NCBI GenBank assembly: GCA_018806915.1
Contig: JAGKQI010000104.1
Coordinates: 1,922,001 to 1,986,000, forward strand
Direction of reading: 5' to 3'
DNA: 64,000 nt
DNA from: Phytophthora colocasiae
Taxonomy: Eukaryota > Oomycota > Peronosporomycetes > Peronosporales > Peronosporaceae
The translations under genes were made by a program, and so were the position numbers. A model generated the notes under the pieces. It did not search any database. It saw only the letters and a list, made by a program, of their open reading frames with translations, and was not told the DNA's origin. This document shows, piece after piece, positions 2,926 to 31,240 of this stretch. Position 1 is the stretch's first letter. Each line of letters starts with the position of its first letter.

Positions 2926-2964
2926 TGTTTGAGTCTGACTCAACACCATTTGTAAAAGTGTGCA

Positions 2965-4344: not shown

Positions 4345-4370
4345 GATCTGTAGTTTCGGATCAATAAAAT

Positions 4371-5200: not shown

Positions 5201-5298
5201 GAAACACCGCAAAAGTACGGTCGGAATTTAGTCTCTTGCTTCACGTATTTCGGGACTATAATACAACTTTTTTTTTGAACAGGTGCTCTGATCAGAAA

Positions 5299-10102: not shown

Positions 10103-10278
10103 CTAAAAAGTGGCCATATTTTCAGGGATGGCGCCCACCGAGAGGAAAAAAATCCACGCACTAGAGGTGAGGTGCGTGTTCACTATGGCGTCTCAATGTT
10201 TCCTCTCGTTATGCTGTGCATGTTAGACTTGACAAAGAAGAAGAAAATAATCAAATGCACCCAAGATTTCGTGTCTTC

Positions 10279-11963: not shown

Positions 11964-12059
11964 CGTGGCACGAGTTTTTTTTTTCCTCCAAAAATGCTTA
12001 TGAAGGGACGCAAAGCCCTGTACAACTCAAGAAGCTCTGGATATTTCTGTTGATAATTT

Positions 12060-12544
12060 GTATGTCCTACAGAGTATGTAGTGCAGCCGTCTACAGAAGA
12101 TTGAAGATAGTCAATTGGCTTGCTCTGGCCTACATGTATGTGTACGAGCCTTCAATAATGACATCATCGATCATCCACACAACGGCTGTGCCACAACCTG
12201 CGTGGCCAGTTACAGTTGCTGCTGCTTGCCGATCAGCTGGGAGCTCCTTCAATGGGTTGTTCTTGAGCCGGAGTTCTGGGATAACAATATCGGGAGGCAT
12301 CATAGCTAATGCCGATGATTTGATTAATATCGAGATTTCGGTTAAAAGTCATTCTCGAAGACGAAAAGTGCCGCCACAAACATAAATCATCCGGGATAGC
12401 AGTCAGATTCGTCTCTGAGAACTGAATCGACATCATAGTGGCCGGTAGAGGTTGAAGATGCCCTTGAGAGAATTCTGTCATGTTGGTATTCCCCAGTAAA
12501 ACTGACAGTAATTTGTTGCCGAGATGGAGCTCTCTACGCCCCAG
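12060..12544 (-). pseudogene. TM-LRR protein copy 2, C-terminal LRR fragment
   Basis: Read from 12544 downwards this continues the fragment that ends at 34157. It starts NWGVESSISAT, then LLSVLLGNTNMTEF, LPATMMSIQFSETNLTAIPDDL and, in a second frame, MMPPDIVIPELRLKNNPLKELP. Each block matches the LRR half at 2965-4246 (for example MMPPGTIIPELRLKNNPLRELP). One frameshift separates the blocks near 12330-12400, and the match ends near 12230 in Ala/Thr-rich sequence with a stop at about 12133. It is the downstream half of the LRR gene cut at TTAA by the piggyBac element. Confidence 0.75.
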
Positions 12545-12904
12545 TTAACCCCCCTGCGCCCAAGCTGTTTTTCTACCCGTTTTTCATGATGGTAACATAT
12601 TCAAAATACAGCATGTATAGACGCTGGACACTTAAAGTTTGTATGATCCCGGATAAGTACGTGTACCGGTTTTGAACTGCCCTCTCTACCCATCACCCCT
12701 CATGTTGGATCTAAACAGCTCACTTCATGTGTTCATGTTGTATCATACACCATGATATCGAATTTGAGGAGGGAGTGTGTTGGACTTTTTATCAAGAGAC
12801 CGGACAAGTAGCACAGAGACCATAGTTTTTCAACAAGCAATCAAGGTCAAAGCAAAAACAGAGACCATGGATTCACCAGCTTAGCTATCTTAGAACCATT
12901 ACCA

Positions 12905-14301
12905 TTAGATTTCTCCGGCAGCAACTAGCTCGCGTGCCGCCTCTAGGTCGTCCTCAATGCCTTCGTTATCCGAGTTCTCATCACCTTCTGAGTCTTCCGC
13001 GTCTTCCACGGCTTCCACACTTTGCGCGTCCTCCACGCTCTCTGTGTCCTCTGCATTTTCCTCTCCTTCATCACCTTCTGAATCACCTTCATCGTCCTCA
13101 CCCTCTCCGCTGGATCGACTCTTGCGCTTGCCTGGACTTCCACCAGATTCTCGGCTTTGAATTCCTCGTCCGCAACGAGGATTCGGACGTTTCGCCCCAT
13201 TATTCCACTTGTAATGCCATATCTGCGAGCACGTCAACGAGTTGCCAGGGTAGTGTTAGCCAAACTCTGTTGCACAAATACATCCTAAAAAAGAACAAAA
13301 TAGATCAGCTTTGCATATGCCTCGAAACGTGAGGACGTACCGAGCTTTGTCCGAGGTGCTGCAGGCAGCGCAGTAATACTTTGTGGCACGGCGCTCTCCA
13401 ACTCGACGTTTCAATATAGAGCATACCTTGCATTGGCGTTGACGACGTTTGCGCACTCCATTGACAACTTGGTACTCAGGGCATTCTTCTGACTGGTGTC
13501 CTGGTGGCAATGGCGGAAGGACCTCACCATCTGCGGTTTCCTCTGGCTCGGACTATGGGTAGGACATTATTAGTTCCAACATGTAGCAGATACACCATGT
13601 CTCAAGATGCAACATGATCAAAATACAACATGTATCGATGGCAACAGTTGTACAGCATCCTCCACATCCAACATGTGTCTGCGTACAATGTTCATACAAT
13701 ATGTACAGGATACAGCATGTATCCAGACCACCAGTTCTATACAACATACACGTGATACAACATGTGGTACTTACGCTCTCAGCAAAATCACGCTCGCGCA
13801 GCCCCAGCATCTCGGTGTGCAGCTCCAGCAGGAACTCAGCATGGGTGATAGGACGCTCCGGGCTTGCCTTCTGTGCTTCTCTGAAAACGATGTACGCGTT
13901 CACGATGGCGACGTCGACGAGTCCCATGAAAATTGCCTTATAGTACTTCTTCAACCACGTTTGCATTTGCAACGAGTATCGCTGGAGGCGGAGCTGGTCG
14001 TGGATATCCACTCCGCCCATCCAGCGATGGTAGTCCCGGATCATCGAAGGACACGGAATGTCTTGCCGCACACCTCTAGAAGTTCTCGTCCGCCGCTCTA
14101 CAAAAGTATAAGTTACCAAATTATACAAAAACAGAAGTGAAAAAGACGTACGGCAAGTTTCAATAGTGCGGCTTGACCCGGTTGCCAGGAACTGGACAGG
14201 TTTTCTGTCCCACCAGACTAAAGCCGTCATTCCGGGGCAATTTTTCGCGACTGCCATTCGTGTAGTCCCGTGTGGAATGGACTTAGGCCGATCTCGGTTT
14301 T
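12905..14301 (-). pseudogene. piggyBac transposase, C-terminal part
   Basis: Continues the transposase from the retrotransposon insertion point. Exons on the minus strand: 14301-14152, 14097-13775, 13552-13341 and 13284-12905. Family marks: ALVWWDRKPVQFL, then CPSMIRDYHRWMGGVDIHDQ with the third catalytic Asp, YYKAIFMGLVDVAIVNAY, and a C-terminal Cys-rich zinc domain (CKVCSIL...YYCAACS). A very acidic tail ends at 12905. A one-base shift near 13245 separates the last zinc-binding LCNRV block from the CSQIWHYKWNN block, so the last exon is damaged or mis-sized. The ATG that opens an ORF at 14350 lies in the retrotransposon LTR and is not the native start. No longer functional because the N-terminal half is 17 kb away. 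Confidence 0.82.
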
Positions 14302-14419
14302 TGTGGTGAAGTGGATTCAAATCAAGCCGGACAGGACGCAGAACGACCACGATGATGGGTGACGTGCGACAGTGGTGCTACGATAAGGGCAGATCCCTGG
14401 AACTGGTACCTACTCTAGG

Positions 14420-15330
14420 GCGGATCCTAAGTTAGGATCCACTTGGCCTGGCTAACTTAAGTTCGGATCCCACAGTCCTAAGTGCGGATCCGGCAGTCCT
14501 AAGTGCGGATCCTTCAGATCCAAGATCCTTGGATCCAGATGCCAGGGATCCAGATCCAAGATCCAGAGATCCAGATCCAAGATCCTCGGATCCTGAAGCC
14601 GGATCCCCAAGATCCAAGATCCAGAGATCCAGATCCAAGATCCCCAAGATCCAAGATCCTCGGATCCAGAAGCCAGAGATCCAGATCCAAGATCCTCGGA
14701 TCCTGTAGCCGGATCCCCAAGATCCAAGATCCTCGGATCCTGAAGCCGGATCCCCAAGATCCAAGATCCAGAGATCCAGATCCAAGATCCTCGGATCCAG
14801 AAGCCAGAGATCCAGATCCAAGATCCTCGGATCCTGTAGCCGGATCCCCAAGATCCAAGATCCTCGGACCCAGATGCCAGAGATCCAGATCCAAGATCCT
14901 CGGATCCTGAAGCCGGATCCCCAAGATCCAAGATCCAGAGATCCAGATCCAAGATCCTCGGATCCAGAAGCCAGAGATCCAGATCCAAGATCCTCGGATC
15001 CAGAAGCCAGATCCCCAAGATCCAAGATCCTCGGATCCAGAAGCCAGAGATCCAGATCCAAGATCCTCGGATCCAGAAGCCAGATCCCCAAGATCCAAGA
15101 TCCTCGGATCCAGAAGCCAGAGATCCAGATCCAAGATCCTCGGATCCAGAAGCCGGATCCCCAAGATCCAAGATCCAGAGATCAAGATCCAAGATCCAGA
15201 GATCCAGATCCAAGATCCTCGGATCCAGATGCCAGAGATCCAGATCCAAGATCCTCGGATCCAAGAGATCCAGATCCAAGATCCCCAAGATCCAAGATCC
15301 AGAGATCCCGAAGCCGGATCCTCAAGGTTT
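14420..15330. repeat. GGATCC/AGATCC short-repeat array in the 5' LTR
   Basis: A mosaic of short modules such as CCAAGATCCTCGGATCC, AGAAGCCAGAGATCCA and CCGGATCCCCAAGATCCA, combined into units of roughly 25 and 36-37 bp. The word GATCC recurs every 6-15 bases. All six reading frames stay open over long stretches because the repeats carry few stop words, which produces several false ORFs on both strands. A homologous, longer array lies in the 3' LTR (about 29320-30335). Confidence 0.9.
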
Positions 15331-15439
15331 ATGACATCAACGTGGTGAGGCAGTTGGAAGAGAGCCAGCATGATCTAAGATAGAGGTTTGCGATGGGAAA
15401 GATAGGGTACAGGATGAGAAACTGGATAGTCATAAATCA

Positions 15440-15830
15440 GAGAGTCGAATTTGCCTTCTAGTGCGCAAGTGGTTTTCCTCAGGGCTCACCAAGGGAAGAG
15501 GATAGCGTATTGGCCTCCCCTTAGTGTTCCTGCAAGTTTCTTCGCACACCTAGCTACAGCTAAGACCGGATCCCCGATTTGGCCGGCTTACCTTACGCTA
15601 GTGTAGGGATCTCTCGATATCTCACCCCCCCTAGAGAGTCGAATTTACCTTCTAGTGCGCAAGTGGTTTTCTTCGGGACTTAAGACAAGGGAAGAGGATA
15701 GTGTATTGGCCTCCCCTTAGTGTTCCTGCAAGTTTCTTCGCACACCTAGCTACAGCTAAGACCGGATCCCCGATTTGGCCGGCTTACCTTACGCTAGTGA
15801 AGACCCCGGATCCAACGGTGTTGATTGCTT
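15440..15830. repeat. 194-bp tandem duplication inside the LTR
   Basis: The segment beginning GAGAGTCGAATTTGCC at 15440 recurs at 15634 (GAGAGTCGAATTTACC). Both copies continue through TAGTGCGCAAGTGG, AAGGGAAGAGGATAG, TTGGCCTCCCCTTAGTG and CACACCTAGCTACAGC to CTTACGCTAGTG. Differences are a few substitutions and small indels. The same duplication is in the 3' LTR (about 30445 and 30637), so it predates this insertion and is a stable feature of the family. It may double a promoter or transcript-end signal. Confidence 0.8.
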
Positions 15831-16235
15831 AACCGTAGGATCCCTCGACCTCTCAACACCCCCAAGACCAACCGCTACAGGAGGCGGCAAGCAAGACAGT
15901 AAAGGAAAGGAAAAGGACCCCACACCCATCAAGGCAACCCCGGATCCAAGGATCCACAAGATCTTCGGGTCCAAGACCAAGATCCCCCCAACCAGGACCT
16001 GTGTGCAGGAATACCCACGCAAGTCCAACCTCCCAAGTCCCCGCCAAGGACGTTCAAGCCCTCACGCCTGTGTACAGTCTCCCGTTCCTGAGAGAGCAGA
16101 TCCCGCCCACTGACGGGTACACAAGGTGAGCCTCAGCAACCCCACGGTTATCGGAGTACCCTCCGGTATTCAGTGTCTGGGCGCCGTGTGTGAACGTTGG
16201 ATCCCTGCTCATTCCAGCGGATCCACTACACCACA

Positions 16236-18560
16236 ATGGTGCGCGTGCCCGGATCTTTTGGGGACGGCGGATATCACCGTGAGTCCGAAGAGACTGTACA
16301 AGTGAAGGAAGAACCGGGAGAAGAAGTGCCGACGGTCGTTGGATCGCCGTCAGCACCGCTGAACGCTAGATCCACGGATCGGCGGAGCCCTGGGAGGAGC
16401 TCTGCCGACAGGGAAGGAGGCGAGTCTGGCAACAGACTCGGAAGAAAAACCTCCCCTCCTCCCCAGGTCCTTCGGGGACCCCTGCGGATCGGAACGCGAG
16501 TTCTGATCCGCCGGGTGGGGATTCATCAGCGAAAGCTGTTGGATCTTTATCCACCACCACAACCCCCGCGCAGATCTCAGGTGGTAAAACGTCGAAGAAG
16601 AAGATGAAGACTGCGCGGAAGAAGCTGAGGGCACCAGGATCTGATGTCGACGAGAAGCCGGTGGTGAAATCGGAGTGGTCGTCGACCCAGCTGGAGGCTT
16701 CGTATCGCCGGATCGCGCTCGAGGACTTCCTCCGAGAAGACCCTGTGATGAGGATCCTACAACCCCAGTTGGTTGGATCCCTCACCGGCCCGATCACGGC
16801 GCCGGCGCAGTCTACGAACAGTCTAGACAGCGCCTTGGACCTCCTCTGCCTGTTAGAGGAAGCTGGTTTCGCGGCAGGAGCTTTCGATGGGGACTCACTT
16901 TTCCGCTTGGACCACGACAGGATCCGTATCGCAGCGGCTTCATTATTCAACCGACTGAAGCCCCTCGTTGGTGAACGACGAGCGACCCGGGATCTGGTGT
17001 CCAAGCTAGCGCAGTCCCCAGAGTATCAGACTGGATCCTCTCGATACGCCTCGGCGGAGTCTGAGGCAGGATCCGACAGTCCGTCTGAACCCCGACGTAT
17101 GGCGCTCGGGCCTACAGGTGCTGCGATGCTGGCAGCCCGTATGCCGACGGATGTCCCGGAGATCAAGCCAGCCCGAACGCGGGACATCTCGCGTGATCAG
17201 CCCCGTGCCATGGATCCGCCGCATGCATCCACCAACAGGCTGCAAACCTATTTCCAATCGGCCATGGACAAATTCTTGAAGGAACAGCAGATGACTGTGG
17301 TTCCACGGGTTACAACGCACACTGCGGATCCTGTGTACCGGGATGTCGAGATGGAGTCAGTAGGATCACACCCTGAGAACTGGGGAGTATGACCCTGACG
17401 ACCTTGACGGATTAGCTCCACGGCGTACGGCGACGACTACCGCTGTATCCGTTACGGCAGGATCCAGCACGATTCAACGGATCCGGATCTCTGCAATATC
17501 GGACTTGAAGGAGTTCACGGGCAAGGATCACGACGAGGAACGAGCAAGATCATGGATTAGTAAGGTCAAGTCAGCCTTCACGAGAGATCAAGCATCGGAC
17601 GAAGAAAATGCCTTACCTTCGGAGATCTGCTCACTGGTCCAGCGCGAAACTGGTACAGACAACTCAGTCGATCCACAAGGCTGAAGTGGAGTGACTCTGC
17701 TGAAGGCCTTCCAGACGCAGTACTGTGGCCTCGGAGTCTCGGTGGCGTGGCAATACTACCACGCTCGCAAAAGATCCGATGAGTCGCCACTGGAATACTT
17801 GTATCGCTTGAACGTAGCAGGTCTCCGTGCGAGGGTGATGATCAAGGATGGAGATGCCAAAGCCCGCCGCGAGCACGTCGAACACTTCATCGAAACGCTC
17901 GGGGATGCGGATCTGGCAGACCAATTGACATTACTCCGACTTGCGGACGCGGATCAACTCGAAGACGTGCTGCGGGCCAGAGATCGCGCGAGATCCAGAC
18001 AGAAGAAGCCGTCGTCAGGGTCCAGCAAGTTCCGGCCGAAGACCACGACGGCCCCGCAGCCAACCGGTCCAACGCGTGCGATCCGTTCCATGCAAGTTGT
18101 CGAATCGGAGGGATCCGACTCCGAGGACTCCGGATCCGATGGTGAACTTCGCAGAGCATACGTAGCAGCTTCGAGTGAGCGACCGACTACCTCGACGACA
18201 GCCGGATCAACAGAGGCCAAGACAGGGACTTCGGATCCTAAGAAAGATCCGGATCCAGCCCAAGCCAGCTCGGATCCAACGCCACAAGATCGTCGACCAC
18301 GTTTCTCCGAACGAAGGCAGCGCTGCTCGCACTGCGGATCCAGGAAACATTCGGATTTTGGCTGCTGGAAGCGCCTTACCTGCCAGAAGTGCGGCAAGAA
18401 GGGTCATCCGTCGGATCGCTGTTTCTTCGTGTGTCGCGGCTGCGGAGAACTTCACGATCACGGCAAATGCCAGATGGAGGAGTTCTACAACCTCATCCGG
18501 CAGTGGTTCGATCCAAGTAAGCACATGCTTCCGGAAGCTGCCGAGAAGATGTTAAACTAG
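16236..18560 (+). pseudogene. gag: gag polyprotein, four frameshifts
   Basis: The first frame (from ATG 16236 to about 16607) is Pro/Ser/Arg-rich. The reading then moves to the frame of 16604-17392, back at about 17385, shifts at a short A-run near 17607, and returns near 17688. In the best-fitting path, capsid marks appear in order: SDLKEFTGKD, RSWISKVK, LTFGDLLTGPARNWY, LLKAFQTQYCG and ESPLEYLYRLN. These are typical of Ty3/gypsy Gag. Nucleocapsid: CSHCGSRKHSDFGC and CQKCGKKGHPSDRC zinc knuckles at about 18328-18420, then another Cys/His pair. It ends MLN-stop at 18558-18560, right at the frameshift cassette to pol. GGATCC hexamers occur throughout. Gag normally forms the cytoplasmic particle; this copy cannot make it without repair. 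Confidence 0.75.
16237..16252 (+). other. Putative primer-binding site
   Basis: One base after the LTR end (…CACCACA, A) the sequence reads TGGTGCGCGTGCCCGG. Position and the leading TGG, complementary to a tRNA 3' CCA, are typical of LTR-retrotransposon minus-strand primer sites. I cannot name the tRNA without a tRNA set. The site overlaps the first ATG of the gag frame (16236). Confidence 0.45.
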
Positions 18561-18600
18561 GACGCTCGCCGGGTTTGAATCCGGTACGAGACGAGCGTTC
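18551..18600 (+). promoter_or_regulatory. Candidate -1 ribosomal frameshift cassette between gag and pol
   Basis: The gag frame ends ATG TTA AAC TAG. G TTA AAC (18551-18557) is a known type of -1 slippery heptamer in the correct phase, immediately before the stop. Slipping back one base continues as CTA GGA CGC, which is exactly the pol frame. Downstream, GGACGCTCG (18560-18568) can pair with CGAGCGTTC (18592-18600), one G-U pair included. Inside that, CCGG (18569-18572) pairs with CCGG (18581-18584). The spacer of 2-4 bases is shorter than the usual 5-9. Confidence 0.65.
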
Positions 18601-21600
18601 AACGTCTTACATCTATGCATATGTGAACAAGAAAGCCATGGATCGAGTTAGCAACAAGCAAACGGATCTATTGGATAATACATGTGAACTTCATGGGAAA
18701 CGTACGGCTAGAGTTGCAAGCTTCCGCTCTACAGACGATGAATACCAGAGATCCGAGATCGCTATGTCCTTGGATCTCATGCCTGGAGAGTCACGCGGGT
18801 ACTGGCAGTACCATGTCCCCAGCAAACACTTCAAGCAGGCCAAGGCAACGTGCAAGATCAACAATGCCAAGTCCACCGTGCTTCTTGACTCGGGATCCGA
18901 GGTGTCGATCATCGATGCCGCCTTTGCTCGTAAGGTTGGATCCCAGATTGACACTAGTCAAACACAAGAATGCCTCGGAATTGGTGAGCAGTTGTATATT
19001 GCAGCAGGCAAAACAAGGATTAAAGTTATCTTGGCTGGGTACTTAATAAACTTCTGCGATGTCTGGGTCGGCGAGGATCTTCCACCCAACTGCGACGCGA
19101 TCCTCGGTATGGACTTCATGGTACCGGCCGGGATCCGACTTGACTTGGGCGACGGATCCGTGTGCTTGCACGACGAGATCCGTGTGCGACTCCATGGACG
19201 GCGGCAGATCTTCAGTGGCCGGGCTCGCTCGCTACTCCTCCAAGAAGGCATACGGCTGGAACCCGGCGGGATCTTCGAGCACCCGGACCGGATCCATCTC
19301 AGGGAGTATGAGAAGCTGTGGTTACGGAGAGGGAAGCAATGGGTACCGACGTTAGTACAAGGCCCAGGCAAGATCCGCTATCTACAACTTACCAACATTG
19401 GTGAGAAGGCGATCTCTCTCAACCACAACGAAGAGATCGGCATGTGGCTGGCCGGGGATCACGTTCCCCGCACTCCAGGCTTCATCTCCGTCGGATCCAG
19501 GCGCTACCACGAATGGCAGAACCTCGCCATGAGCGCCACGACGGAGATCCCGCCGCCACCGCGTCCGAAGGAGCCATGGGAGCTTGAGCCGGCGGTGGAT
19601 CGCCCGAAGTACACCGAGCCGAAGGGGATCTTGAAGCGCCCTGTCCACACCGCTGTCGTGTCGCGCTGCCCCGGCTCGCCACCTACGTCGGACCGAATCC
19701 TTGAAGGAACGGCCGACTGGCGAGACAGGATCCAGTCAGGTGGATCCGATCCGTCAACGGCTAAGCTCCAAGCTCACCGCCGTGTCCGATTTGGGCCAGA
19801 GGCCACAAAGGACGTTGCGCAAGCCTCATCGGACCAAGGGGCGTCCTCACACGCCCGGATCCGAGATCCACAGGCTCAAGGATCCTCCGGATCCTCTACA
19901 GCTTGTCTGATTGAAGATCCGGCAACGTGTACTGTCTCTGGCCAGAGACTGGACGCCACCGTTGAATATCGGCAGCATGTCCGTGCGACGGGCGACGACC
20001 ATCACCCCGACAAATCAGTCGGAGATGACGTTTTGACGTGCCCTGGGGCGAATATGCATGCACCACTGCCAAAGTTGGTATGGGCATGCAGCGCGATGCA
20101 AGGCGCGTCTAACGAGCCATCACACGCCTTCAACGGAGCCCTAGAAGCCGAAGGGGCCATGTCGACACTCCTCCTTGAAGATCCGGAGGGCTGCCCCGTC
20201 TCTGCACAGAGCCGGGACAATGATGCCGAAGGGTCGCCCCATAATCATGGGACAGGTGACCATCATTCAGATGGCACAGTCGGATCCAAGGTTTTGGGGT
20301 GCCCCGGAGCTCACAGGAATGCCCAGGAACTCAGAGCGCTACCATTATACGCGCCCGATCAAGACCTTTCGAATGAGGTGCCTCACGCCTCCCAACTCCA
20401 TCTACAAGCAAAGTCGGATCCTTACCTGACACAGCTTGAAGATCGGTGTCGCACATGCGACATGGGTCAAGGACGGGGCAGGTCCGAACAGTCGTCTGAG
20501 TCCGCACTTAGTGGGGATCTGAGCTCCTCATATTCACACAAATATGAGCGAGCGGCGGAGACGGCCTGCAGGAAGGGCGCCGCCGATTGCGAGGCACCCA
20601 GGGCGATCTACGCGTGTACCAAGGGTGCTACAGATGCGCCTCGCCGAGGCGAAGACGATGGTGTGCGCCAAGGCAAGATTGAAGACTCAAGGGCGCCAGG
20701 GGATCCGGATCAAGGCGTGACGGCACAAGAAGATCTGGACCAAGGGACGACGACGTGCGTGGGAGCGACAAAGACCCCAGAGGATGATCCAGGAGCTGGA
20801 TGTGGTGCGCAGAAGAGTGATCCTGCTGTTGGAACCGGTTTGGAAGCGGGGAGTGAAGTTGGAGGACGTACCGAAGGAGGTACCGCTCCGGAGTCGGATC
20901 CCGCCAGGAGGAAGCTGGATCCTGTGTCCAGTGATCAGCCAGCAGTTGGGATGAGTGGAGATCTGTTACTGGATCCAGGGTGTGGAGATCGTGAAGGAGT
21001 CTTCGATCAGGATCTCGTGGTTGGATCCCGACCGGATCCCGTGGCTGAGTCCCAGCCGGATCCTGGATCCTTTGCCCGGTCACACGCTACAGTCAGATCA
21101 TCGGATCTTGTCGTGAAATCTCGGCCGGATCCCAGTAACGCGGAAGATCACGTCGACGATGGAGGTTTTGTCCACGAGAATGGTGGATCCTACGCGGAGG
21201 ATCTTGAGAAGGAGATGACGGTGCTACCAGAAGTTGTGACGGCAACGGTCGAAGTGAAGATCGAGGATCTCCAAGTGGGGGATCCAGCCTCCAACACGCC
21301 TGAGGAGATCCGACGACTGGCGAATGAGATCTGGAAGTACAAGCACCTGCTGATCGGGAAGGGTAATGCCTTACCGCCTCCTGCCGTAGGCGCGATCTGT
21401 GACATCGATGTGGGAGACGCCAAGCCGATCGCCCAGCGAGTACGTAAAGTGGCACCGCAGTATCGCGAGAAACTTTCGGATCTGATCAAAGGGTTGTTAC
21501 AAGCGAAGATTATCCAAGTCTCTACATCGCCGTGGGCCTCGCCAATCGTCGTGATCATCAAGAAGAATGGCGTTGATATCAGGCTCTGCATCGACTACAG

Positions 21601-22210
21601 GCTGGTGAATAGCTTGACGAGGCTGATGGTATATCCTATGCCTCTCATCAATGATCTACTGGAGGATCTCGACGCCGTGTTGTGGTACTGCTCTCTCGAT
21701 ATGGCTAGTGGTTTTTGGGTCGTCTCTATGACGGATCGTGCAAGGGCCATCTCGGCATTTATCACTCCGTTTGGACTGTTTGAGTGGAACCGGATGCCGT
21801 TTGGTCTCAAGAATGCCCCGCAGATCTACCAGCGTTTGTTGGACAACGCCCTCTATGGGTTCCTACGGATCCTGCCCACGGCCGGATCCGGATCCGCGTT
21901 GGATCTCTTCCGAGATGGGATCCCGGAGACGAACGGTGAACAGTCTGTACTTGGACGAAGATCGTACATCGACGACATCTTAGTGACCGCCGGATCCTGG
22001 GATCACCTGTGTGAGCGAGTGCATTTATTGTTGGAAGCCTGTGACAAGTGGAACTTGTCGATCAGCGTGGCCAAGAGTTTCTGGGGTCTGAAGAAGGTCG
22101 ATTACCTGGGACACCGAGTGTCTAGCGAAGGACTAGAGGCACATCCGAAGGACCGAGAAGCGCTGGTGGATCTCGAGATCGCTGCGCGCTATGCAATCTT
22201 TCCTGGGTAG
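18575..22210 (+). pseudogene. pol: pol part 1: aspartic protease, acidic/repeat linker, reverse transcriptase
   Basis: 1,211 codons, open upstream to 18557 in the -1 frame of gag. Retropepsin-like protease: LLDSGSEVSIID with catalytic Asp at residue ~105, and the partner block AILGMDF. A ~500-residue linker of low complexity follows, containing two diverged copies of a ~75-residue unit (EDPATCTVSGQ... and EDPEGCPVSAQ...). Reverse transcriptase is at about residues 960-1200 (SPWASPIVVIIKKNG, LCIDYRLVN, SLDMASGFW, YIDDI at ~1131). It has a ~35-residue insertion just before YIDDI, as seen in some oomycete elements. The ORF ends at TAG 22210 although the RT/RH connection (MQSFLGSLNYY) continues in another frame from 22191. 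A one-base indel near 22185 therefore inactivates the polyprotein. Confidence 0.85.
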
Positions 22211-25136
22211 CCTAAACTACTACGCTCGATTCATCGAGGACATGGCGGTCTACGCGTCGGTACTCTACGAACTGAGGGAGGTCGACTTCGCGGAGTTAAG
22301 GTCCAGCCGCAAGATCCTGCAGCCAACCGACTCTGTGATCAAGGACCCCGAGGATCCGTCGAGCCCGAGAGATCCGGATGAGAAGTGGATCCGTGCTTCA
22401 GCCGCCTTCGAGGCCCTGAAGAGGAAGATCGCTATGACTCCTACGCTTCGGCATTTCAATCCCGACAAGCAACCGGTGGTGATTGTCTACGCCAGTGAAT
22501 GGGCCATTTCAGCTTCCCTGACGCAGGATCACGATGGAATCTACATGCCGGTGATGTTCGTTAGCAGATCCCTGAAACCGAACGAAGTGAACTATGGGAT
22601 CGTAGAGAAGGAGGTGCTGGCATTGTTAAGGATCCTGGATCTCGGATATTCCATGTTGGTTGGACGACGGATCCGGGTCCTAACCAGGCACTCTACCCTC
22701 CGGTGGTTGTTCCGTTCTACCGGACTACAAGGAAGGTTGGGCCAATGGGCAGCGCTGTTATCGCCTTGGACCTTGGAGATCACGAAGTGTACGAAAGGGG
22801 AGGACGAGACCCTCGGATCCCTCGCCGCAAGTATCACCCCGAGATCCGAGGTGGATCAAGCTCTAGTGAACATCGCCCCGAGGAAAGAGCCACGCCGAGC
22901 GATCCAGATGCCAGTACCAACCGTAGGACCGGAGGAAGAGTTGTGGGTGGTTAGTTTCGACGGATCCGCCAGGGTGAAACGAGGCGGTGGGTCCTTCAGC
23001 GCGATCGTCTGGAAGTTACCTGAATGGAGGGTGATTAAGGCAGCATCTCGATACGCAGAGAACCTGACAGTCAACGAAGCGGAGTACAACGGACTTCTAT
23101 TATGTTTCGAGTTACTCGAGGATCTGGCTAAGGGGCGACTTGTTATCTGCGGAGATTCGAATCTGGTGATCCGCCAGATGCGCGGCGAGATCGACTGTAA
23201 AGCGCCGGCCCTGACATTACTGAGACGGAAGGCGTTAATGCGGCTTCGGGAATGGCCGGATCACGACCTGCTACATGTGAAGCGAGCGTGGAACACAAGC
23301 GCTGACAGCTTGGCCAGTGCAGCATTGCAACGAGAGAGCGGGACTACAATCGACCAAGGGGCGGATCGCGAGGATCTCGTCACTTTGAATCGGTTGGATG
23401 AGATTCTGACATCAGGATCCGAGGATCCGACACCACGGATCAGTGCAGTTGCTACTCGAAGACAAGCTAGAGAGGGGCGACCCCGAGTACTCGACGAGGA
23501 GTCCGTGCAACGGTTGAGGATCGACCGGATCCGACAAGCCCAGGACGAAGAGACATGGATCTTCAACCTGAAGTCGTTCCTGCGGGGACAGCTGACAGAT
23601 CTGACTGCGGCTGAAGCCAAGACGTGCCGCCTGCTGGCAGACAACTTCGAGTTGGACGGGGATGAGCTGTTGTTCTATTGCGCACCTTCACGAAGGGCCG
23701 AAGCCGATCGAGATGGATTGCTACGACTGGTTATACCTGAGACGCTTCAGGCCGACTTGTTGCACCACTATCACAACAGTCTAGAAGGAGGACATCAAGG
23801 GATCGGCCGTACGTACCAGAGGATCAAGGATCACTTCTACTGGAGAGGACTTTTCAAATCTGTACAGCGGTTTGTGGGAGAATGCGTGGACTGCGAGACA
23901 GGCAAGGGGCGACCCACCATTCGTGGTGTATCGCCAGGCAACATTCAAGCCACCTACCCGTTCCAAGTGATCGCCATGGATCACATACCCTCGCTACCAC
24001 GATCCGAGAAAGGGAACACTGAACTCTTGGTATGGGTGGATCTCTTCACTGGTTATGTGATCGTCAATGCGAATAACTCGCGAACGGCCCAGGCCATCGC
24101 GGAGTCCTATGAGATCTGTGTGTTTCGTCGTTTCGGCGCCAGCCAGGTGATCCGTCACGACCGAGAACCTGGGTTTATGTCCGACTTGTTTCGTGCTTTC
24201 AACCGGATCCTAGGCCAGCGCCAGAGAGCCACTATGGCTTACCGACCACAGTCAAATGGCACGGCTGAGCGGATGGTGCAGACAATTACCCGAGCGATCA
24301 AGATGTATGTCCAGGATCCCGACCAGCGCGATTGGGACGAGTATGCCGAACGATTGACTTTCGCCTTGAATACTGCGCAAGATCGGACTAGGGGCGACAC
24401 ACCATTCTACCTCGCACACGGTTGGGACCTCAAGACGACTCTGGAAGCAACGCTCTCTGTGGGGAATACCGGACGTCGAGATACAGATCCACGACGCTGG
24501 AGGTATCGGATCCAGCGACACTACCAACTAGCCAGGGCTGAGGTGAATGACCGCCTGAAGCGGGCGATTTCGGATCGTGCAGACCGGCAGAACGAGACGG
24601 CGACTCAACACTCCATCGAGGCCGGATCCCAAGTGTGGCTGTTCTTAGACAGAGTTAAGGAGGGATACGCCAAGAAACTGGCCCACCTGTGGCATGGACC
24701 ATTCCGTGTGGCGGAGATGACGAATGAGTACGCAGCCCGCTTGGAGATCGTTGGTACAGACTACCACTTGTTTCCGGTGGTACACATTTCCAAGTTGAAG
24801 CCAGTCAGGACATTCCCAGACCGACCGAAGACCCAGTTGACAGTGGACGAAGCGGATCGCTTAGACTTCGACGAAGCTTTGTTACCGGAGGACAGCTGGG
24901 ATCGTGATCTGGAAGACGACGAGTTTGAAGTCGAGCGGATCGCGGACGTTCGGACAGGACGACCCACTCGATACGGCCGGATCCGACGAGAGTTCCAAGT
25001 TTTCTGGAAGGGGTATGAGAATCCCACTTGGGTGGACGAAGCGGATTTGAACTGCGGCGCGTTACTGCATGAATTCCTCCAAGAACGAAGCAAAAAGAAC
25101 CGGTTCCAAGCGATGCAGTCGCACGAAGAAGAGTAG
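22191..25136 (+). pseudogene. pol: pol part 2: RNase H, second RNase H, integrase, chromodomain
   Basis: 981 codons, the continuation of pol after the frameshift near 22185. First RNase H about residues 97-190 (YASEWA in place of the usual TDAS, so its first catalytic Asp looks lost). A second, plant/archaeal-type RNase H lies at about 250-380 with its acidic set intact (SFDGSA, NEAEYNG, CGDSNLVIRQ, NTSADSLA). Integrase: H-H-C-C zinc finger about 523-565 (LLHHYHNSLEGGHQG ... CVDC), then D ~595 (AMDHI), D ~656 (RHDRE) and E ~691 (NGTAERM). C-terminal chromodomain about 910-965 (FEVERIADVR ... FQVFWKGYENPTWVDEADL), which would steer integration to marked chromatin. Loss of the first RH active site with retention of the second is the pattern known from plant Tat-type elements. 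Confidence 0.87.
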
Positions 25137-25289
25137 GCGACGGGGGTGGATCTTCACTGGTGAGGGCGCTCGTTAGTGTGGAGAAGAGAAGACTGGCAGT
25201 CTACTGCGAGTGGACGCGATGTATGTTTGTATATGAAGAAAAGAAGACCGATTTCTGGAGAGGGCTGGAAAGCAGGATCAGAACCTACG
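25137..25289. other. pol 3' spacer
   Basis: Between the pol stop and the 71-bp array. No ORF with domain content; a short reading frame on the plus strand runs into the array. I see no terminator signal I can name. Confidence 0.4.
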
Positions 25290-25875
25290 CTCGGATCCCG
25301 TCTAGAGCTCGAGTTTGGGACGAATTTTCTACCTGGATCCTCGGAGCTCATAAGGGGATATGTCTCGGAAGTTGGATCTTCGGATCCCGAGGCCGGATCC
25401 CTGGATCCTCGAAGCGGATCCATTCTGGAAGTGGGATCTCCGGATCTCGAGGCCGGATCCTCGAGTTTGGAAGTTGGATCTCTGGATCCCGAGGCCGGAT
25501 CCTCGGATCCTCGATTTTGAAAGTTGGATCCTCGAGTTTGGAAGTTGGATCTCTGGATCCCGAGGCCGGATCCTCGGATCCTCGATTTTGAAAGTTGGAT
25601 CCTCGAGTTTGGAAGTTGGATCTCCGGATCCCGAGGCCGGATCCTCGGATCCTCGATTTTGAAAGTTGGATCCTCGAGTTTGGAAGTTGGATCTCTGGAT
25701 CCCGAGGCCGGATCCTCGGATCTTCGATTTTGAAAGTTGGATCATCGAGTTTGGAAGTTGGATCTCCGGATCCCGAGGCCGGATCCCCGGATTTTCGAAA
25801 TGGATCCATCTTGGAGCTGGATCCTCAGAGCTCTGAGTCGGCTTTGTAGGATCCAAAGGCTGGATCCCCAGTTTT
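25290..25875. repeat. 71-bp GGATCC-rich tandem array between pol and the antisense gene
   Basis: Five regular units start at 25476, 25547, 25618, 25689 and 25760, exactly 71 bp apart. Each begins GGATCTCTGGATCCCGAGG or GGATCTCCGGATCCCGAGG and contains AAAGTTGGATCCTCGAG. Degenerate units extend on both sides from about 25290 to 25875. Each unit has several GGATCC words. Frames in both directions read through the array, giving false ORFs with repeated DPR, RIL and SWI blocks. It lies 3' of the pol stop (25136) and 3' of the antisense ORF stop (25987), so it separates two convergent coding units and may hold their transcript ends. Confidence 0.88.
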
Positions 25876-25986
25876 GGATACTGGATCTCGAAATACATCT
25901 TAGCAAAACTGAAGATGGAGGACATGGATACCAGGTGAAGGAGACAGAAGACGGGCAAGAAAATATAAAAAGTTATGCAATGCCGC

Positions 25987-28900
25987 TTACAAAGTTCTGG
26001 CCCTGGCAGCTTCAGCATCGAAATCAGGTAGCGATCGGACGAACTTCATGGAGAGTCGACTAGTGCCAAGGCTGGGGTGAGAAGATCCAGACCGGTAGTG
26101 AGTACGCCAAGGATCTTGACGATCACAATCTTCGAGGGCAGCTAAGAGGCTCCGTGGAGGATCTGCTCCAGTGTCGACAGCCTCAGCCCCAGGATACCAA
26201 GTGACATCTTCCGCCGGTAAGGGGAAGTGGACGAAGTGTGGATCTAACCATAGATCCAAGTCGCAACACCCGGTCAGGCGCATCCTCTCGAAGATCTTGC
26301 TCTGAAGCTTGCGGTAGTTGCTCCGGGCATGGGACCCGCGATTCTTTCGGCGGCGATAGAAGCTGGTGAACCAATGGTCCGCCTTCCGAAGCTCTATAGA
26401 GATGGGGAACGAGTGCGTGCATTCCCAGATCGCTTGCAAGTTGGCAGCCTCGAATGCGTCATACCAGCTCAGGATCTCCGCGAGATGGGGTGACAAGCCG
26501 GCTTGAAAGGTGTAAGGAGGCGGAGACTGGGACCCCAGACCCTTCCATGGCTCCGTCGCGTACAACTCGGTAATTTGCGCCTTGGAGATTAGATCTGGAG
26601 CGTAGCTGGATGGATCCATAGCACCACGACCGACACGAAGGGGAAACAGCCACCCTGGGCGATAACAAGCGGTCAGGCCACTGGCAGAGAGTGTTTGCAG
26701 ACTCAGAAGGCTGACTTGGTCTGCGATCCAAGGGGCCACCTCTTCAGGAGACATCTCGCGTGGATCCCGAACAGCCGGAACGAACTCTTCTAGTGGGCCG
26801 TACGCCTCGAACTGAAGCCCAACACTCCTTTCGAGAGAATCCGTCGGGTGAACCTCGGGGGACGCAGAACGTGAAGGGCTGGATGCAACACTGGAGTGGG
26901 TAGTGGGGGCGTCTCGGATCTCAATGGGAGCAGACGCCGACCCGTCCCCCGACGAACGCCGACGCAGTTCCGACCGAGAGCGTGACATGACGGCCTTCAA
27001 CTGTTCTTCATCAAATTCCTCCGACTCGCTGCCCGAGCCGAATCCTGGGTCGTCTCCCGCACCAGATCCAGCTGGACCTCCCTCACCGGAACCCTGTGAT
27101 CCCTCAGGGGGCTTGGCAGCGGTAGCGGAAGACTTCGCGGAAGATGTCAGATCCGGGATCTCTGAGGGTGCACTCGGCAGGGGTGCCTCAGCAGACTTGT
27201 CCGGAGGTGGAACACGCTTGGGATCCGCCGAGTCTTGATCCTTCCCCGGTCGCTCTTGCGCCGCGTCCCCGAAGTCGAGATCCGGATCGTCAGTCGCATC
27301 ACCTGCTGTTTTGGAAACGGGAACAGGCGCAGGTTTGGACACGACAGTGGAAGGATCTGCAGGATCGGCCTGACGCGATATCTTGTGCGGCGGCTCTCCT
27401 GTCGGGACAGAAGTTTCGCGTCGACGACGCTTGGCAGAAGAACCTTCTTGGGAAGTAGAAGACTCAGACTGCGCGCTTGGGGCATTCGAGGAACTGCGCA
27501 TAGCCATAGAGGCGATCGAGGCCAAATTACGAAGGGCCGACGTACGCTCGTCAATTACACTGCGATGCTCTTCTTCCAGGGCGAGGTGCTCCTGCTCGAG
27601 CGCGTCATACTTCGTTTTGAGATCTTGATGGTCGTGGCGGAGACGCTTGAGGTCTTCTTCGCTGGTCACTGCCCGTGTCAACGACGCAGCCAGCTGCTCC
27701 GATTCACTCTTCAAGCGCTGGATCTCCATCCCTTGGTGACGAATCACTTGATCCTTCCCGGCGAAGATCTGCCTGGCCTGATCGCGTTCGAGGGTTACTG
27801 TGGAGATCTTCTGCATGGTCTTGTCCAGCTCTTGCATCGCTGCTGTAGACGCCCGGGCAGCCTCGTCGCGCTCGAGGCGGATCCGATCCAGATCCGCACG
27901 TATCTTCCTCTGTTCTGACGACTGGTTCCGGATCCGATCGATCTCACGTTCGGCTTTCTCTCTGGCTTGGTCCGCCCGATCGCGTTGACGTTTTACTTTC
28001 AGCAGATCATCTTCGGCCCTCTGGAGACTCTTCTCGGCGCTCTGACGCTTGGATACGTTCTTCTCAGACCGTCTCTGCTGATGCTCGATCTCTTCACGGG
28101 CGTTGAGGTTCTCTTGCGTCAGACGCGCCAGGTTTTCGCTGGCCCGGTCGAGTTTCTGGACAGTATGCGTATGAACTCGATGGAGTTCCCCACGTCGACG
28201 TTCTGATTTGGCGAGAAGATTCTCCAGCTCATGGACCCTCTCGTTCCGAACATGAAGATCCAGTTTGAGCGACTCGACAGTCTTGACGAGATTTTGATTG
28301 GGGAGCTGCTTGAGCGACTCACGTAGCTGGTCACGGTGGGCCCGAAGATCTTCAATCTTGCGTGCTTGTTGGTCGCAACGGATAGCGGACTCCGCGAGTT
28401 GGACGCTGGTACGATTTTGCTCGAGTAAGGCCGCATCTCGCGCGGTCTCCGCGTCTTTCAACTTCTCCTCCAATTCCGTTGAACGCTCTAACAGTTCCGA
28501 AGATTCTTCACGCTGATGCTCAAGCTCTTGAGCCAACCGTACCACGGATGGATCCTCCGCCGAGATGTCTTCCCCAGCAATCTGCCGCTCGAGTCCGACT
28601 GCATAGTCCTGTAAGACAGCATAGGCTTCTGCTGAAGAGACCTCTAGATCCGAGTATTGGGCCTTGAGGACGTCGAGCTCACGCAAGTGATCCTTGAGCC
28701 GATCCAGATCTTGCACCGCTTCCGCTTCCTTTTGCTTCGCCAGCCGGAGAGCACCTTGAGAAACATTATACCGATGCTGCGCGAAGTCAATGAACGCTTG
28801 AGCAAGGTTCAGACGAGGCTGCAACAGACCATGGAGTTCTTCATTGTGTCGCCGCGCCGAAGTGAGATCCCGGAGCACTTGTTGGTAGCTGGCCTGCATC

Positions 28901-29253
28901 TCAGCGTATCCATCGGAGAGAGACTGGAGGGAAGCGACGGCAGCATACACAGGATCCAGATCCGGGACCGTTGGAGTCGCGGCTACAGCGGGATCGGAAG
29001 GAGCGTGGTCACAATGGGAACATGGAGGCTGAGCCGCAGAGGGATCTTGGCCGAAGAACACGGTGGTGTACGCGGAGGAACAGTCGTCGGCAGGCCGATC
29101 CATTTTGCAGAGGTCGCGATTTGAGGAATGACGAGCCAAATTGGAATTTTGTATGGGAACGACGTGATGCCGTTGTGCGGCAACAACCTCGTCCCAGGGG
29201 CGATTGTGGTGAAGTGGATTCAAATCAAGCCGGACAGGACGCAGAACGACCAC
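25987..29253 (-). CDS. Antisense coiled-coil protein carried by the retrotransposon, unknown family
   Basis: A single uninterrupted frame of 1,088 codons, opposite to gag-pol. The first ATG (29253) lies inside the 3' LTR, so ~16 codons are LTR-derived. A more conventional start is ATG 29103, just inside the element. Layout (full-length numbering): a Cys/Ser-rich start, then about residues 120-610 almost continuous heptad-type coiled coil rich in Glu, Arg, Leu and Gln. Next come a KRRRRE nuclear-signal-like patch, a Pro/Ser/acidic linker, and a compact C-terminal ~220-residue region rich in Trp, His and aromatic residues (for example WLDPHFVHFPLP). It has no RT, envelope or transposase motif and no obvious signal peptide. 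GGATCC words occur here too. Plant Grande/Retand-type elements are known to carry antisense ORFs in the same place; I do not know of one in Chronos. It is the only large ORF of the element without a lesion. Confidence 0.7.
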   Translation of the reverse strand: MVVLRPVRLDLNPLHHNRPWDEVVAAQRHHVVPIQNSNLARHSSNRDLCKMDRPADDCSSAYTTVFFGQDPSAAQPPCSHCDHAPSDPAVAATPTVPDLDPVYAAVASLQSLSDGYAEMQASYQQVLRDLTSARRHNEELHGLLQPRLNLAQAFIDFAQHRYNVSQGALRLAKQKEAEAVQDLDRLKDHLRELDVLKAQYSDLEVSSAEAYAVLQDYAVGLERQIAGEDISAEDPSVVRLAQELEHQREESSELLERSTELEEKLKDAETARDAALLEQNRTSVQLAESAIRCDQQARKIEDLRAHRDQLRESLKQLPNQNLVKTVESLKLDLHVRNERVHELENLLAKSERRRGELHRVHTHTVQKLDRASENLARLTQENLNAREEIEHQQRRSEKNVSKRQSAEKSLQRAEDDLLKVKRQRDRADQAREKAEREIDRIRNQSSEQRKIRADLDRIRLERDEAARASTAAMQELDKTMQKISTVTLERDQARQIFAGKDQVIRHQGMEIQRLKSESEQLAASLTRAVTSEEDLKRLRHDHQDLKTKYDALEQEHLALEEEHRSVIDERTSALRNLASIASMAMRSSSNAPSAQSESSTSQEGSSAKRRRRETSVPTGEPPHKISRQADPADPSTVVSKPAPVPVSKTAGDATDDPDLDFGDAAQERPGKDQDSADPKRVPPPDKSAEAPLPSAPSEIPDLTSSAKSSATAAKPPEGSQGSGEGGPAGSGAGDDPGFGSGSESEEFDEEQLKAVMSRSRSELRRRSSGDGSASAPIEIRDAPTTHSSVASSPSRSASPEVHPTDSLERSVGLQFEAYGPLEEFVPAVRDPREMSPEEVAPWIADQVSLLSLQTLSASGLTACYRPGWLFPLRVGRGAMDPSSYAPDLISKAQITELYATEPWKGLGSQSPPPYTFQAGLSPHLAEILSWYDAFEAANLQAIWECTHSFPISIELRKADHWFTSFYRRRKNRGSHARSNYRKLQSKIFERMRLTGCCDLDLWLDPHFVHFPLPAEDVTWYPGAEAVDTGADPPRSLLAALEDCDRQDPWRTHYRSGSSHPSLGTSRLSMKFVRSLPDFDAEAARARTL

Positions 29254-31240
29254 GATGATGGGTGACGTGCGACAGTGGTGCTACGATAAGGGCAGATCCC
29301 TGGAACTGGTACCTACTCTAGGGCGGATCCTAAGTTAGGATCCACTTGGCCTGGCTGACTTAAGTTCGGATCCCACAGTCCTAAGTGCGGATCCGGCAGT
29401 CCTAAGTGCGGATCCTTCAGATCCAAGATCCTTGAATCCAGATGCCAGGGATCCAGATCCAAGATCCAGAGATCCAGATCCAAGATCCCCAAGATCCAAG
29501 ATCCTCGGATCCAGAAGCCAGAGATCCAGATCCAAGATCCTCGGATCCTGAAGCCGGATCCCCAAGATCCAAGATCCTCGGATCCTGAAGCCGGATCCCC
29601 AAGATCCAAGATCCAGAGATCCAGATCCAAGATCCCCAAGATCCAAGATCCTCGGATCCAGAAGCCAGAGATCCAGATCCAAGATCCTCGGATCCTGTAG
29701 CCGGATCCCCAAGATCCAAGATCCTCGGATCCTGAAGCCGGATCCTTAAGATCCAAGATCCAGAGATCCAGATCCAAGATCCTCGGATCCAGAAGCCAGA
29801 GATCCAGATCCAAGATCCTCGGATCCTGTAGCCGGATCTCCAAGATCCAAGATCCTCGGACCCAGATGCCAGAGATCCAGATCCAAGATCCTCGGATCCT
29901 GAAGCCGGATCCCCAAGATCCAAGATCCAGAGATCCAGATCCAAGATCCTCGGATCCAGATGCCAGAGATCCAGATCCAAGATCCTCGGATCCAGAAGCC
30001 AGATCCCCATAATCCAAGATCCTCGGATCCAGAAGCCAGAGATCCAGATCCAAGATCCTCGGATCCAGAAGCCAGAGATCCAGATCCAAGATCCTCGGAT
30101 CCAGAAGCCAGATCCAAGATCCTCGGATCCAGAAGCCGGATCCCCAAGATCCAAGATCCAGAGATCAAGATCCAAGATCCAGAGATCCAGATCCAAGATC
30201 CTCGGATCCAGATGCCAGAGATCCAGATCCAAGATCCTCGGATCCAAGAGATCCAGATCCAAGATCCAGAGATCCAGATCCAAGATCCCCAAGATCCAAG
30301 ATCCAGAGATCCCGAAGCCGGATCCTCAAGGTTTATGACATCAACGTGGTGAGGCAGTTGGAAAAGAGCCAGCATGATCTAAGATAGAGGTTTGCGATGG
30401 GAAAGATAGGGTACAGGATGAGAAACTGGATAGCCATAAATCAGAGAGTCGAATTTGCCTTCTAGTGCGCAAGTGGTTTTCCTCAGGGCTCACCAAGGGA
30501 AGAGGATAGCGTATTGGCCTCCCCTTAGTGTCCCTGCAAGTCACTACGCACACCTAGCTACAGCTAAGACCGGATCCCCGATTTGGCCGGCTTACCTTAC
30601 GCTAGTGTAGGGATCTCTCGATATCTCACCCCCTAGAGAGTCGAATTCTACCTTCTAGTGCGCAAGTGGTTTTCTTCGGGACTTAAGACAAGGGAAGAGG
30701 ATAGTGTATTTGCCTCCCCTTAGTGTTCCTGCAAGTTTCTTCGCACACCTAGCTACAGCTAAGACCGGATCCCCGATTTGGCCGGCTTACCTTACGCTAG
30801 TGAAGACCCCGGATCCAACGGTGTTGATTGCTTAACCGTAGGATCCCTCGACCTCTCAACACCCCCAAGACCAACCGCTACAGGAGGCGGCAAGCAAGAC
30901 AGTAAAGGAAAGGAAAAGGACCCCACACCCATCAAGGCAACCCCGGATCCAAGGATCCACAAGATCTTCGAGTCCAAGACCAAGATCCCCCCAACCAGGA
31001 CCTGTGTGCAGGAATACCCACGCAAGTCCAACCTCCCAAGTCCCCGCCAAGGACGTTCAAGCCCTCACGCCTGTGTACAGTCTCCCGTTCCTGAGAGAGC
31101 AGATCCCGCCCACTGACGGGTACACAAGGTGAGCCTCAGCAACCCCACGGTTATCGGAGTACCCCCTCCGTTAGTCAGTGTCTGGGCGCCGTGTGTGAAC
31201 GTTGGATCCCTGCTCATTCCAGCGGATCCACTACACCACA
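29205..31240 (+). repeat. 3' LTR of the retrotransposon
   Basis: 2,036 bp, beginning TGTGGTGAAGTGG and ending CACTACACCACA, followed by the T-run that is the target duplication. About 100 bp longer than the 5' LTR because its GATCC array (about 29320-30335) has more units. It also contains the 194-bp duplication (about 30445/30637) and the unique U5-like end. No clear polypurine tract: the bases before it are CCAGGGGCGAT. Confidence 0.9.
29320..30335. repeat. GGATCC/AGATCC short-repeat array in the 3' LTR
   Basis: Same modules as the array in the 5' LTR but in a different order and number (for example a CAGATCCAAGATCCTCGG join near 30112 and an extra GAGATCCAGATCCAAGATCC near 30260). The shift in copy number between two LTRs that are otherwise nearly identical shows the array changes faster than the rest of the LTR. 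ORFs on the minus strand here (Leu-Asp/Gly-Ser/Trp-Ile repeats) are not genes. Confidence 0.88.

Follow-up and report, generated by a model that had tools for sequence, protein, structure and literature searches.

For the VANC proteins of the Arabidopsis VANDAL elements, motif binding and loss of methylation have been demonstrated, and the published account describes a short family-specific motif in tandem arrays of non-coding DNA, with an accessory protein that diverges along with the motif (PMC5735166). In cyanobacteria, HIP1 is a GATC-cored palindrome that occurs far above chance across whole bacterial genomes and whose palindromic flanks vary between lineages (PMC4390886). Among retrotransposons, the Chronos group of oomycete Ty3/gypsy elements combines a dual RNase H, an integrase and a 3' chromodomain (PMC5348765), and the Retand elements of plants have a long internal region past pol, their description referring to an antisense open reading frame (ORF) (PMC11963269). 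Here a stretch of 64,000 nucleotides of Phytophthora colocasiae (contig JAGKQI010000104.1, positions 1,922,001 to 1,986,000, hereafter the window), from a genome of 92.5 Mb in 105 contigs, was analysed. It contains a Ty3/gypsy long terminal repeat (LTR) retrotransposon of ~17 kb (14302-31240) which is Chronos-like, judged by its architecture of dual RNase H and 3' chromodomain. Like the VANDAL elements it carries a short word in tandem arrays, like HIP1 a palindrome with a GATC core and like the plant Retand lineage a long region past pol, here with an antisense ORF. The main text of the Chronos paper does not contain the terms "antisense", "GATC", "tandem" or "palindrom" (PMC5348765). No description of a GATC- or GGATCC-saturated retrotransposon was found in the literature searched, which did not extend to subscription papers.

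The analysis showed that GATC is constrained at the nucleotide level, to the point of overriding codon choice, in two families belonging to the same clade; the other elements and the host ORFs that were tested show no such constraint. The first-pass annotation had described an LTR retrotransposon at 16236-29204 as saturated with the hexamer GGATCC, the flanking host genes being poor in it. Both points were borne out: 92 copies lie in 16236-29204, including all six that had been listed (18111, 18132, 18233, 18251, 18272 and 18336), versus 11 in 46.3 kb of flanks (3 in 1-13500 and 8 in 31241-64000). In 16236-25200, GGATCC is the top hexamer, with 58 copies versus 5.1 expected from dinucleotides. 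The enrichment thus stands, but the hexamer is not its unit: GATC is the top tetramer of the same region (196 versus 73 expected) and GGATCC is the flanked form used by the window family. The density of GATC is 22.3 per kb in 16236-29204 versus 5.9 and 4.6 per kb in the flanks, where observed and expected numbers are 79 versus 66 and 150 versus 134. Genome-wide, triple-GGATCC clusters number 2529 (overlapping matches, all elements pooled), versus 22 for the reversed word.

Other copies were compared with the window element (40 scored of 102 first-look candidates, 20 of them fetched over gag-pol). The word is not private to the window copy, since 19 of the 20 hold 60-107 GGATCC per 9.9 kb; L027 holds 31, in a stretch broken by a Copia insert. 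In a reverse transcriptase (RT) protein search, the 150 of 2617 candidates that were scored comprised the window family, mostly 94-100% identical, and, at ranks below ~45, matches that were nearly all 81-84% identical in amino acids (aa) and constitute a sister family with ~68% DNA identity to the window over the aligned pol piece. Four sister copies contain 175-199 GATC in 7 kb (72-75 expected) and only 12-13 GGATCC (5.5-5.8 expected); they are 95-98% identical and therefore not independent, and two of them, L029 and L030, were used in the cross-family codon tests. As the sister family has GATC without a strong excess of GGATCC, GATC is the word of the clade and GGATCC the version of the window family. 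For another match, L041, similarity was limited to the first 50 bases of the stretch sought, and a search for pol relatives in viral_contigs and genome_contigs gave no useful lead.

The coding sequences were then compared with 1000 synonymous-codon shuffles per ORF. GGATCC exceeded all shuffles only in the two pol ORFs, namely protease-RT (29; mean 6.8, maximum 15) and RNase H-integrase (14; 4.0, 12), the other values being 7 for gag ORF1 (2.8, 8), 6 for gag ORF2 (2.2, 7) and 7 for the antisense ORF (4.0, 10). Codon-matched shuffles do not give the GATC counts, which in the same order of ORFs were 89, 59, 19, 19 and 54, with shuffle maxima of 67, 46, 17, 19 and 48. Ranked against shuffles, GATC was first of the 256 tetramers in six of six coding sets of the clade (z 3.7-11.3). 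In the window family, pol had 146 versus 81.0 (z 11.2), gag 38 versus 23.6 (z 4.9) and the antisense ORF 54 versus 37.1 (z 5.3); in the sister family, two near-identical pol copies had 148 versus 80.4 (z 11.3) and 116 versus 64.2 (z 10.0), the L029 set including an overlapping second slice, and the antisense piece, which is the tail of L030 only (1266 nt), had 23 versus 14.5 (z 3.7). GATC ranked 196, 187 and 102 in three Ty3 pieces, 139 and 145 in two Copia pieces and 23 in the host ORFs, with z values of 1.9 for the host ORFs and of -0.9 to 0.3 for the five other transposable element (TE) pieces. These controls were 3-kb pieces chosen among 150 listed integrase matches and the Copia insert of L027, identified by Pfam; two Ty3 controls (L038 and L040) are 74% identical in protein and represent one lineage. 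Among the 16 palindromic tetramers, only GATC is in large excess in both families, GTAC being about two-fold in excess in the window family only. All 12 one-base neighbours of GATC fall under the shuffle mean, 9 of them at z -1.8 or lower. The mean spacing of GATC is 34-58 bp in the measured pol and antisense-gene stretches, the LTR arrays being denser; no 10-11 bp period was found, and the value at 200 bp is mildly raised in three near-identical sister copies (3.4-4.8) and is 0.46 in the window. A further tetramer, CAAG, is top versus synonymous shuffles in two Copia pieces (L039 and the L027 insert; z 7.4 and 4.7), while in the host ORFs it comes second (z 3.6); judged from these sequences, it is a separate codon-context preference of the genome.

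Synonymous choice depends on whether a codon completes GATC, which supports, at the codon level, the earlier suggestion that the protein follows the nucleotide word. Aspartate is encoded by GAT in 117 of 149 cases before C and in 48 of 138 otherwise (p 5e-14), and Gly or Arg codons of the form xGA account for 42 of 68 before TC versus 148 of 526 otherwise. Neither effect was found in host ORFs and other TEs, where Asp GAT before C versus other bases amounts to 43/95 versus 89/253 and 20/44 versus 87/181, respectively. The same sites are retained between the families. Among 57 frequent tetramers of the window element, none is retained in the sister more often than GATC (52/83, versus 875/3842 for all tetramers), the identity at its four bases being 0.84, 0.87, 0.81 and 0.81, versus 0.62 and 0.68 at the adjoining bases and 0.51-0.80 over positions -10 to -1 and +4 to +13. 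In codons with an unchanged amino acid, silent third positions are kept inside GATC in 77/92 (L029) and 74/93 (L030) cases versus 289/778 and 291/776 outside it. In matched comparisons for L029, GAT is retained before C in 22/25 versus 5/10 before other bases (p 0.027) and NNG before ATC in 22/27 versus 114/255 (p 0.0004); NGA before TC (5/8 versus 16/44) was not significant. By frame, GAT-C is kept in 20/31 (rank 4 of 45) and G-ATC in 28/41 (rank 1 of 52). In the antisense ORF, compared with the homologous ORF of copy L044 (82% DNA identity), third positions in GATC are kept in 51/60 versus 522/745 (p 0.017).

Within the window family, variants shared between copies are rarer at GATC (30/168) than elsewhere (1936/6252; p 1.8e-4), and a first version on five pieces, with 17-21 rows per piece, gave 20/113 versus 1191/4184 (p 0.011). 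Rows covering <95% of a piece and four-column windows with gaps, N or a commonest word <60% were excluded. Four-column stretches with singletons only are about as frequent at GATC as elsewhere (43/168 versus 1378/6252). Normal singletons with rarer shared variants support a constraint on the replicating lineages, as opposed to a host mutation rate that is low at these sites. Among the 29 frequent words compared, five others, CAAG included, have a still smaller share of shared variants.

The bases around GATC were compared with a phase-matched expectation. In the window pol, G stands to the left in 107 cases (53.4 expected) and C to the right in 83 (48.3). The antisense ORF has a purine on the left in 43 (25.9) and a pyrimidine on the right in 38 (26.6), T on the left being depleted to 2 (12.5) and, as its mirror, A on the right to 5 (14.9). 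Unlike the window family, sister copies L029 and L030 prefer C at -3 (64 versus 36.3, p 1.9e-6), a tendency towards CNNGATCNNG. Where a GATC site is common to both families, G precedes it more often in the window family than in the sister (12:4, p 0.07; 10:1, p 0.011), and C more often follows it there (14:1, p 0.0025; 11:1, p 0.007), versus a background of ~1:1. The paired values rest on the near-identical copies L029 and L030 and amount to a single comparison. No mirrored preference was found in host ORFs and other TEs, the host ORFs showing a one-sided excess only (p 0.013). Independence of the half-sites was assessed for G..C alone and for all complementary pairs pooled, and G..C half-sites were near independent in three sets (p 0.40, 0.27 and 0.81). 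Since the flank preferences are largely mirror-symmetric, these sequence data support a GATC site that is read as double-stranded DNA, and they suggest, as an argument and not as proof, that the flanks are more easily explained by a dimeric protein or a methylase acting on duplex DNA than by RNA pairing. Of the three causes proposed in the first-pass annotation, a binding or modification site with a palindromic GATC core is the one that the sequence comparisons favour.

The element is organised as follows.

14302-16235, + strand: 5' LTR, TGTGGTG...CACCACA, defined by alignment to the 3' LTR
14516-15308: GATC-dense tandem array of the 5' LTR, units of 36/37, 73, 131 and 167 bp
16237-16252, + strand: probable primer binding site TGGTGCGCGTGCCCGG, directly after the LTR
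16370-17392, + strand: gag ORF1, 340 aa, open frame without Pfam match, called gag by position only
17685-18560, + strand: gag ORF2, open frame without Pfam match over the cut-off
18521-22210, + strand: ORF for protease, low-complexity spacer and RT (Pfam)
22137-25136, + strand: ORF for RNase H, RVT_3, integrase and chromodomain (Pfam)
25382-25862: second GGATCC minisatellite, between pol and the antisense ORF, units of 71 bp and 21 bp
25990-29103, - strand: antisense ORF, 1038 aa from the first Met, coiled-coil-like by eye, without Pfam family
29205-31240, + strand: 3' LTR with its own GATC array (29419-30330), from LTR alignment and tandem-repeat search

The range first given for the element, 16236-29204, is therefore correct for its internal part and omits the flanking LTRs of ~1.93 kb and ~2.04 kb. 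These are 98.3% identical (10 mismatches) over a 905-bp part outside the array, and a T-rich target (TTTT) lies on each side of the element. A tRNA scan of the whole window found none. In the protease-RT ORF, Pfam places RVT_1 at 21557-22120 (1.8e-20) and a gag-asp_proteas match (2.8e-6); in the next ORF, RT_RNaseH covers residues 109-209 and is followed by the second RNase H-like domain, RVT_3, at residues 274-396 (22956-23324), by an integrase with H2C2 and an rve match of 30.9 bits, just under the cut-off of 32.6, and by the chromodomain PF00385 at 24924-25082 (27.6 bits, cut-off 25.1). The pol presumably resembles that of Phytophthora gypsy elements, and gag ORF2 has what we take, by eye, to be cysteine/histidine knuckles. 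The signal of the LTRs and of 25382-25862 lies largely in tandem repeats, while the coding enrichment lies outside them. In the 5' LTR (14422-15330), the 98 GATC have flanks A..C in 68, G..C in 29 and A..A in 1; in 25330-25870, G stands to the left in 36 of 36. The only sister copy read to its 3' region, L042, has its own arrays of 22-, 23- and 30-bp units around GATC, unrelated to those of the window family. Outside the GATC array, each LTR also contains a direct repeat of 195/196 bp in 1.9 copies (15439-15799 and 30443-30802).

Sequence comparison suggests that the antisense ORF is a genuine gene. All four sister copies have a homologous ORF at the corresponding position and on the same strand (33-35% identity over ~250 aa, best 3e-34), and homologues stand at 25990-29103 (-) in the window, 5736-7001 in L030 and 89-3181 in L044; no antisense ORF match was found in L043. 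The ORF of L044 is open, with a dN/dS of 0.27 versus 1.2 and 1.6 for the other two frames of that strand. A search in which 43 of 2094 candidates were scored gave at least 74 matches, most of them 57-100% identical and the lowest 39%, and 52 of the 74 are without in-frame stop. By these comparisons the gene is conserved downstream of pol in two Chronos-like families and diverges far faster than pol. The copy L011/L044 (G000 C105, ~981-994 kb) is a recombinant, 98-100% identical to the window over 16.0-23.0 kb, 89-91% at 23.5-25.5 kb (integrase) and 82% in the antisense gene, so element modules have been exchanged; such recombination accounts for part of the contrast between antisense and RT divergence.

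When a dense word is held by selection over a 17-kb element, and in two families that differ in its flanks, something probably reads GATC there. While the constraint on GATC is well supported, its reader is inferred. Our preferred reading, to which we assign a probability of about 0.38, is that GATC is a selected site on double-stranded DNA, recognised by a factor specific to each family, for which the antisense protein is the lead candidate. GATC would provide dispersed landing sites for a sequence-specific, probably dimeric DNA-binding factor acting along the integrated element, which it might keep transcribable or shield from silencing, and specificity would come from site density and not from site length. 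As two families in one host have different flanks, the factor is probably encoded by the element, and the antisense-ORF protein could play the part that VANC plays for VANDAL. The divergence of accessory protein with motif was shown for VANC, whereas here the protein is a candidate only; VANDAL is moreover a DNA transposon with an 8-9 bp motif that was absent from the coding probes described (PMC5735166), and no homology to VANC is claimed. In a broader form, for which we consider the odds to be even, one selected 4-bp palindrome on double-stranded DNA, recurring at intervals of some tens of bases in coding and non-coding parts alike, would be an element-wide address code that sets chromatin fate and is read by family-specific factors, either element-encoded or belonging to the N6-methyladenine (6mA) machinery. 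HIP1 would then have a eukaryotic equivalent carried by transposons; HIP1 itself differs in extending over whole genomes, in its longer word and in its tie to known GATC methylases (PMC4390886).

Several observations weigh against the bound-factor reading. Conservation is weaker from sister to window (52/111 sites kept), where the identity profile over GATC is flatter (0.75, 0.74, 0.76 and 0.79, with neighbours up to 0.81). The word abounds in every reading frame, as had been claimed, but in the frame NGA-TCN only 4 of 11 sites are kept between families (rank 22 of 54), no better than average, and Ile ATC is kept alike with a preceding G (28/32) and without it (13/15) in L029. For the antisense ORF, the 51 kept positions compare with 44.7 expected from the same codons outside GATC, and GATC is only the 7th of 83 and the 5th of 89 best-kept words. 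The mirror of the sister C at -3 is weaker (L029 56 versus 45.4, p 0.13; L030 61 versus 44.1, chi2 12.3), the G..C pairs of the window pol depart from independence (p 0.02), and complementary flank pairs are slightly over independence in four of four sets (76/66.0, 18/17.1, 46/37.8 and 42/37.7). As to the candidate reader, 22 of the 74 antisense matches have in-frame stops, Pfam detected no DNA-binding domain in the protein, no homologue of its C-terminal domain was found elsewhere among 2814 candidates (none at E 0.001), and a single-sequence AlphaFold run on that domain gave a pLDDT of 32 and no usable model. Copies with an antisense protein only ~66% identical keep GGATCC (77 in L019, for example); within the family, the flank thus does not change along with the candidate reader. 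Finally, VANC motifs lie in non-coding DNA (PMC5735166), whereas GATC is enriched in coding DNA too.

The main rival, which ranks close behind the bound-factor reading and which we regard as possible but doubtful, is that host adenine methyltransferases (DAMT1/3) act on GATC, the dense 6mA along the element, and not a bound protein, altering chromatin or expression and the flanks drifting like the palindromic extensions around HIP1. Constraint extends over almost exactly 4 bp, as is typical of a methyltransferase site, and HIP1, an iterated palindrome with the same core, is linked to GATC methylases (PMC4390886). The host has PF10237 (N6-adenineMlase) genes, a DPPY and an EPPH neighbour and one DPPF, which is the motif set of Phytophthora DAMT1/2/3; recombinant DAMTs, except PsDAMT2, render DNA DpnI-sensitive, and 6mA peaks are enriched in TEs, with 37% (P. 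infestans) and 15% (P. sojae) in LTR elements (PMC6211444). However, DpnI reports GATC only, so that the published specificity is not independent evidence, and the 6mA motifs found by nanopore in P. capsici in vivo are TTATT(A/T) and (A/G)AGGAG, not GATC (PMC10936191); the GATC content of elements is not treated in the available parts of these 6mA papers (PMC6211444, PMC10936191). A genome search gave no match to a Dam (PF05869) or D12 (PF02086) methylase, singletons at GATC have no clear A-to-G excess (7/132 versus 77/1704), and a single host enzyme would not obviously yield different flanks in two families. The gain for the element is not evident either, as 6mA is reported alongside low expression (PMC6211444). 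GATC is ~four to five times as dense in the internal part of the element as in the flanking host DNA, and 6mA enrichment in LTR elements should therefore be corrected for GATC density. With this element it becomes testable whether oomycetes have genuine, functional 6mA at GATC and whether VANC-like self-recognition by retrotransposons exists outside plants. The N6-adenineMlase genes (L033-L036) lie on G000 C100 at ~3.592-3.594 Mb (the DPPY and EPPH neighbours) and on C82 at ~0.745 Mb.

An RNA signal is an unlikely explanation. Nucleocapsids bind short words, and GAUC in the genomic RNA could bind the Gag nucleocapsid or pair, driving packaging or dimerisation in a manner comparable to uptake sequences; the sites cover the entire transcript, a packaging bias would act at every cycle, and the slight excess of complementary flank pairs is what pairing predicts. 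A palindrome is nevertheless unexpected under single-strand reading, only 16 of 256 tetramers being palindromic, the flanks shift on both sides in mirror fashion, and the sister preference at +/-3, weak at +/-1 and +/-2, is at odds with extended base pairing. The packaging signal of the first-pass annotation is thus less likely, although the mirrored half-sites are an argument and not a proof. We consider it improbable that a mutational or conversion drive (RT errors, template switching or repair) makes and protects GATC without function. Tandem arrays are local duplications, one copy is recombinant, and a deficit of shared variants, taken by itself, could reflect either selection or a mutation bias confined to the replication cycle, but the singleton rate at GATC is normal, the sister has GATC at conserved codons with other flanks, and the depletion of neighbours versus synonymous shuffles covers transitions and transversions. 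Measured against a simple dinucleotide model, this depletion is more patchy: TATC escapes it, as do GTTC and GGTC in the sister. Spread of a seed by template switching, as first proposed, fails as a general cause, since the sister lacks the GGATCC excess and the sites are individually conserved. A host codon or codon-pair preference is very improbable: the CAAG pattern of host and Copia ORFs attests that codon-context effects exist and Ile ATC is generally conserved, yet GATC is near expectation in the host ORFs and the five other TE pieces, the word also fills non-coding arrays and ORFs of both strands, and the codon-matched nulls and the Asp GAT context in host and other TEs speak against it. 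Four simpler candidates were rejected: chance or composition, as the dinucleotide expectation is far below the counts; codon usage, by the codon-matched shuffles and codon-context tests; tandem duplication alone, as enriched coding DNA lies outside the arrays; and a single mutation type such as C-to-T, as the depletion of neighbours spans many changes.

At the left edge of the element, an open frame at 13553-14377 (-) has a DDE_Tnp_1_7 match (6.8e-9), presumably of PiggyBac type. This frame crosses the boundary of the 5' LTR, which places the element inside or beside an older DNA transposon. Outside the element, tandem repeats of 15/45 bp (TCACGAGGGTCTCTT and a second 45-bp unit) are present at 47956-48188.

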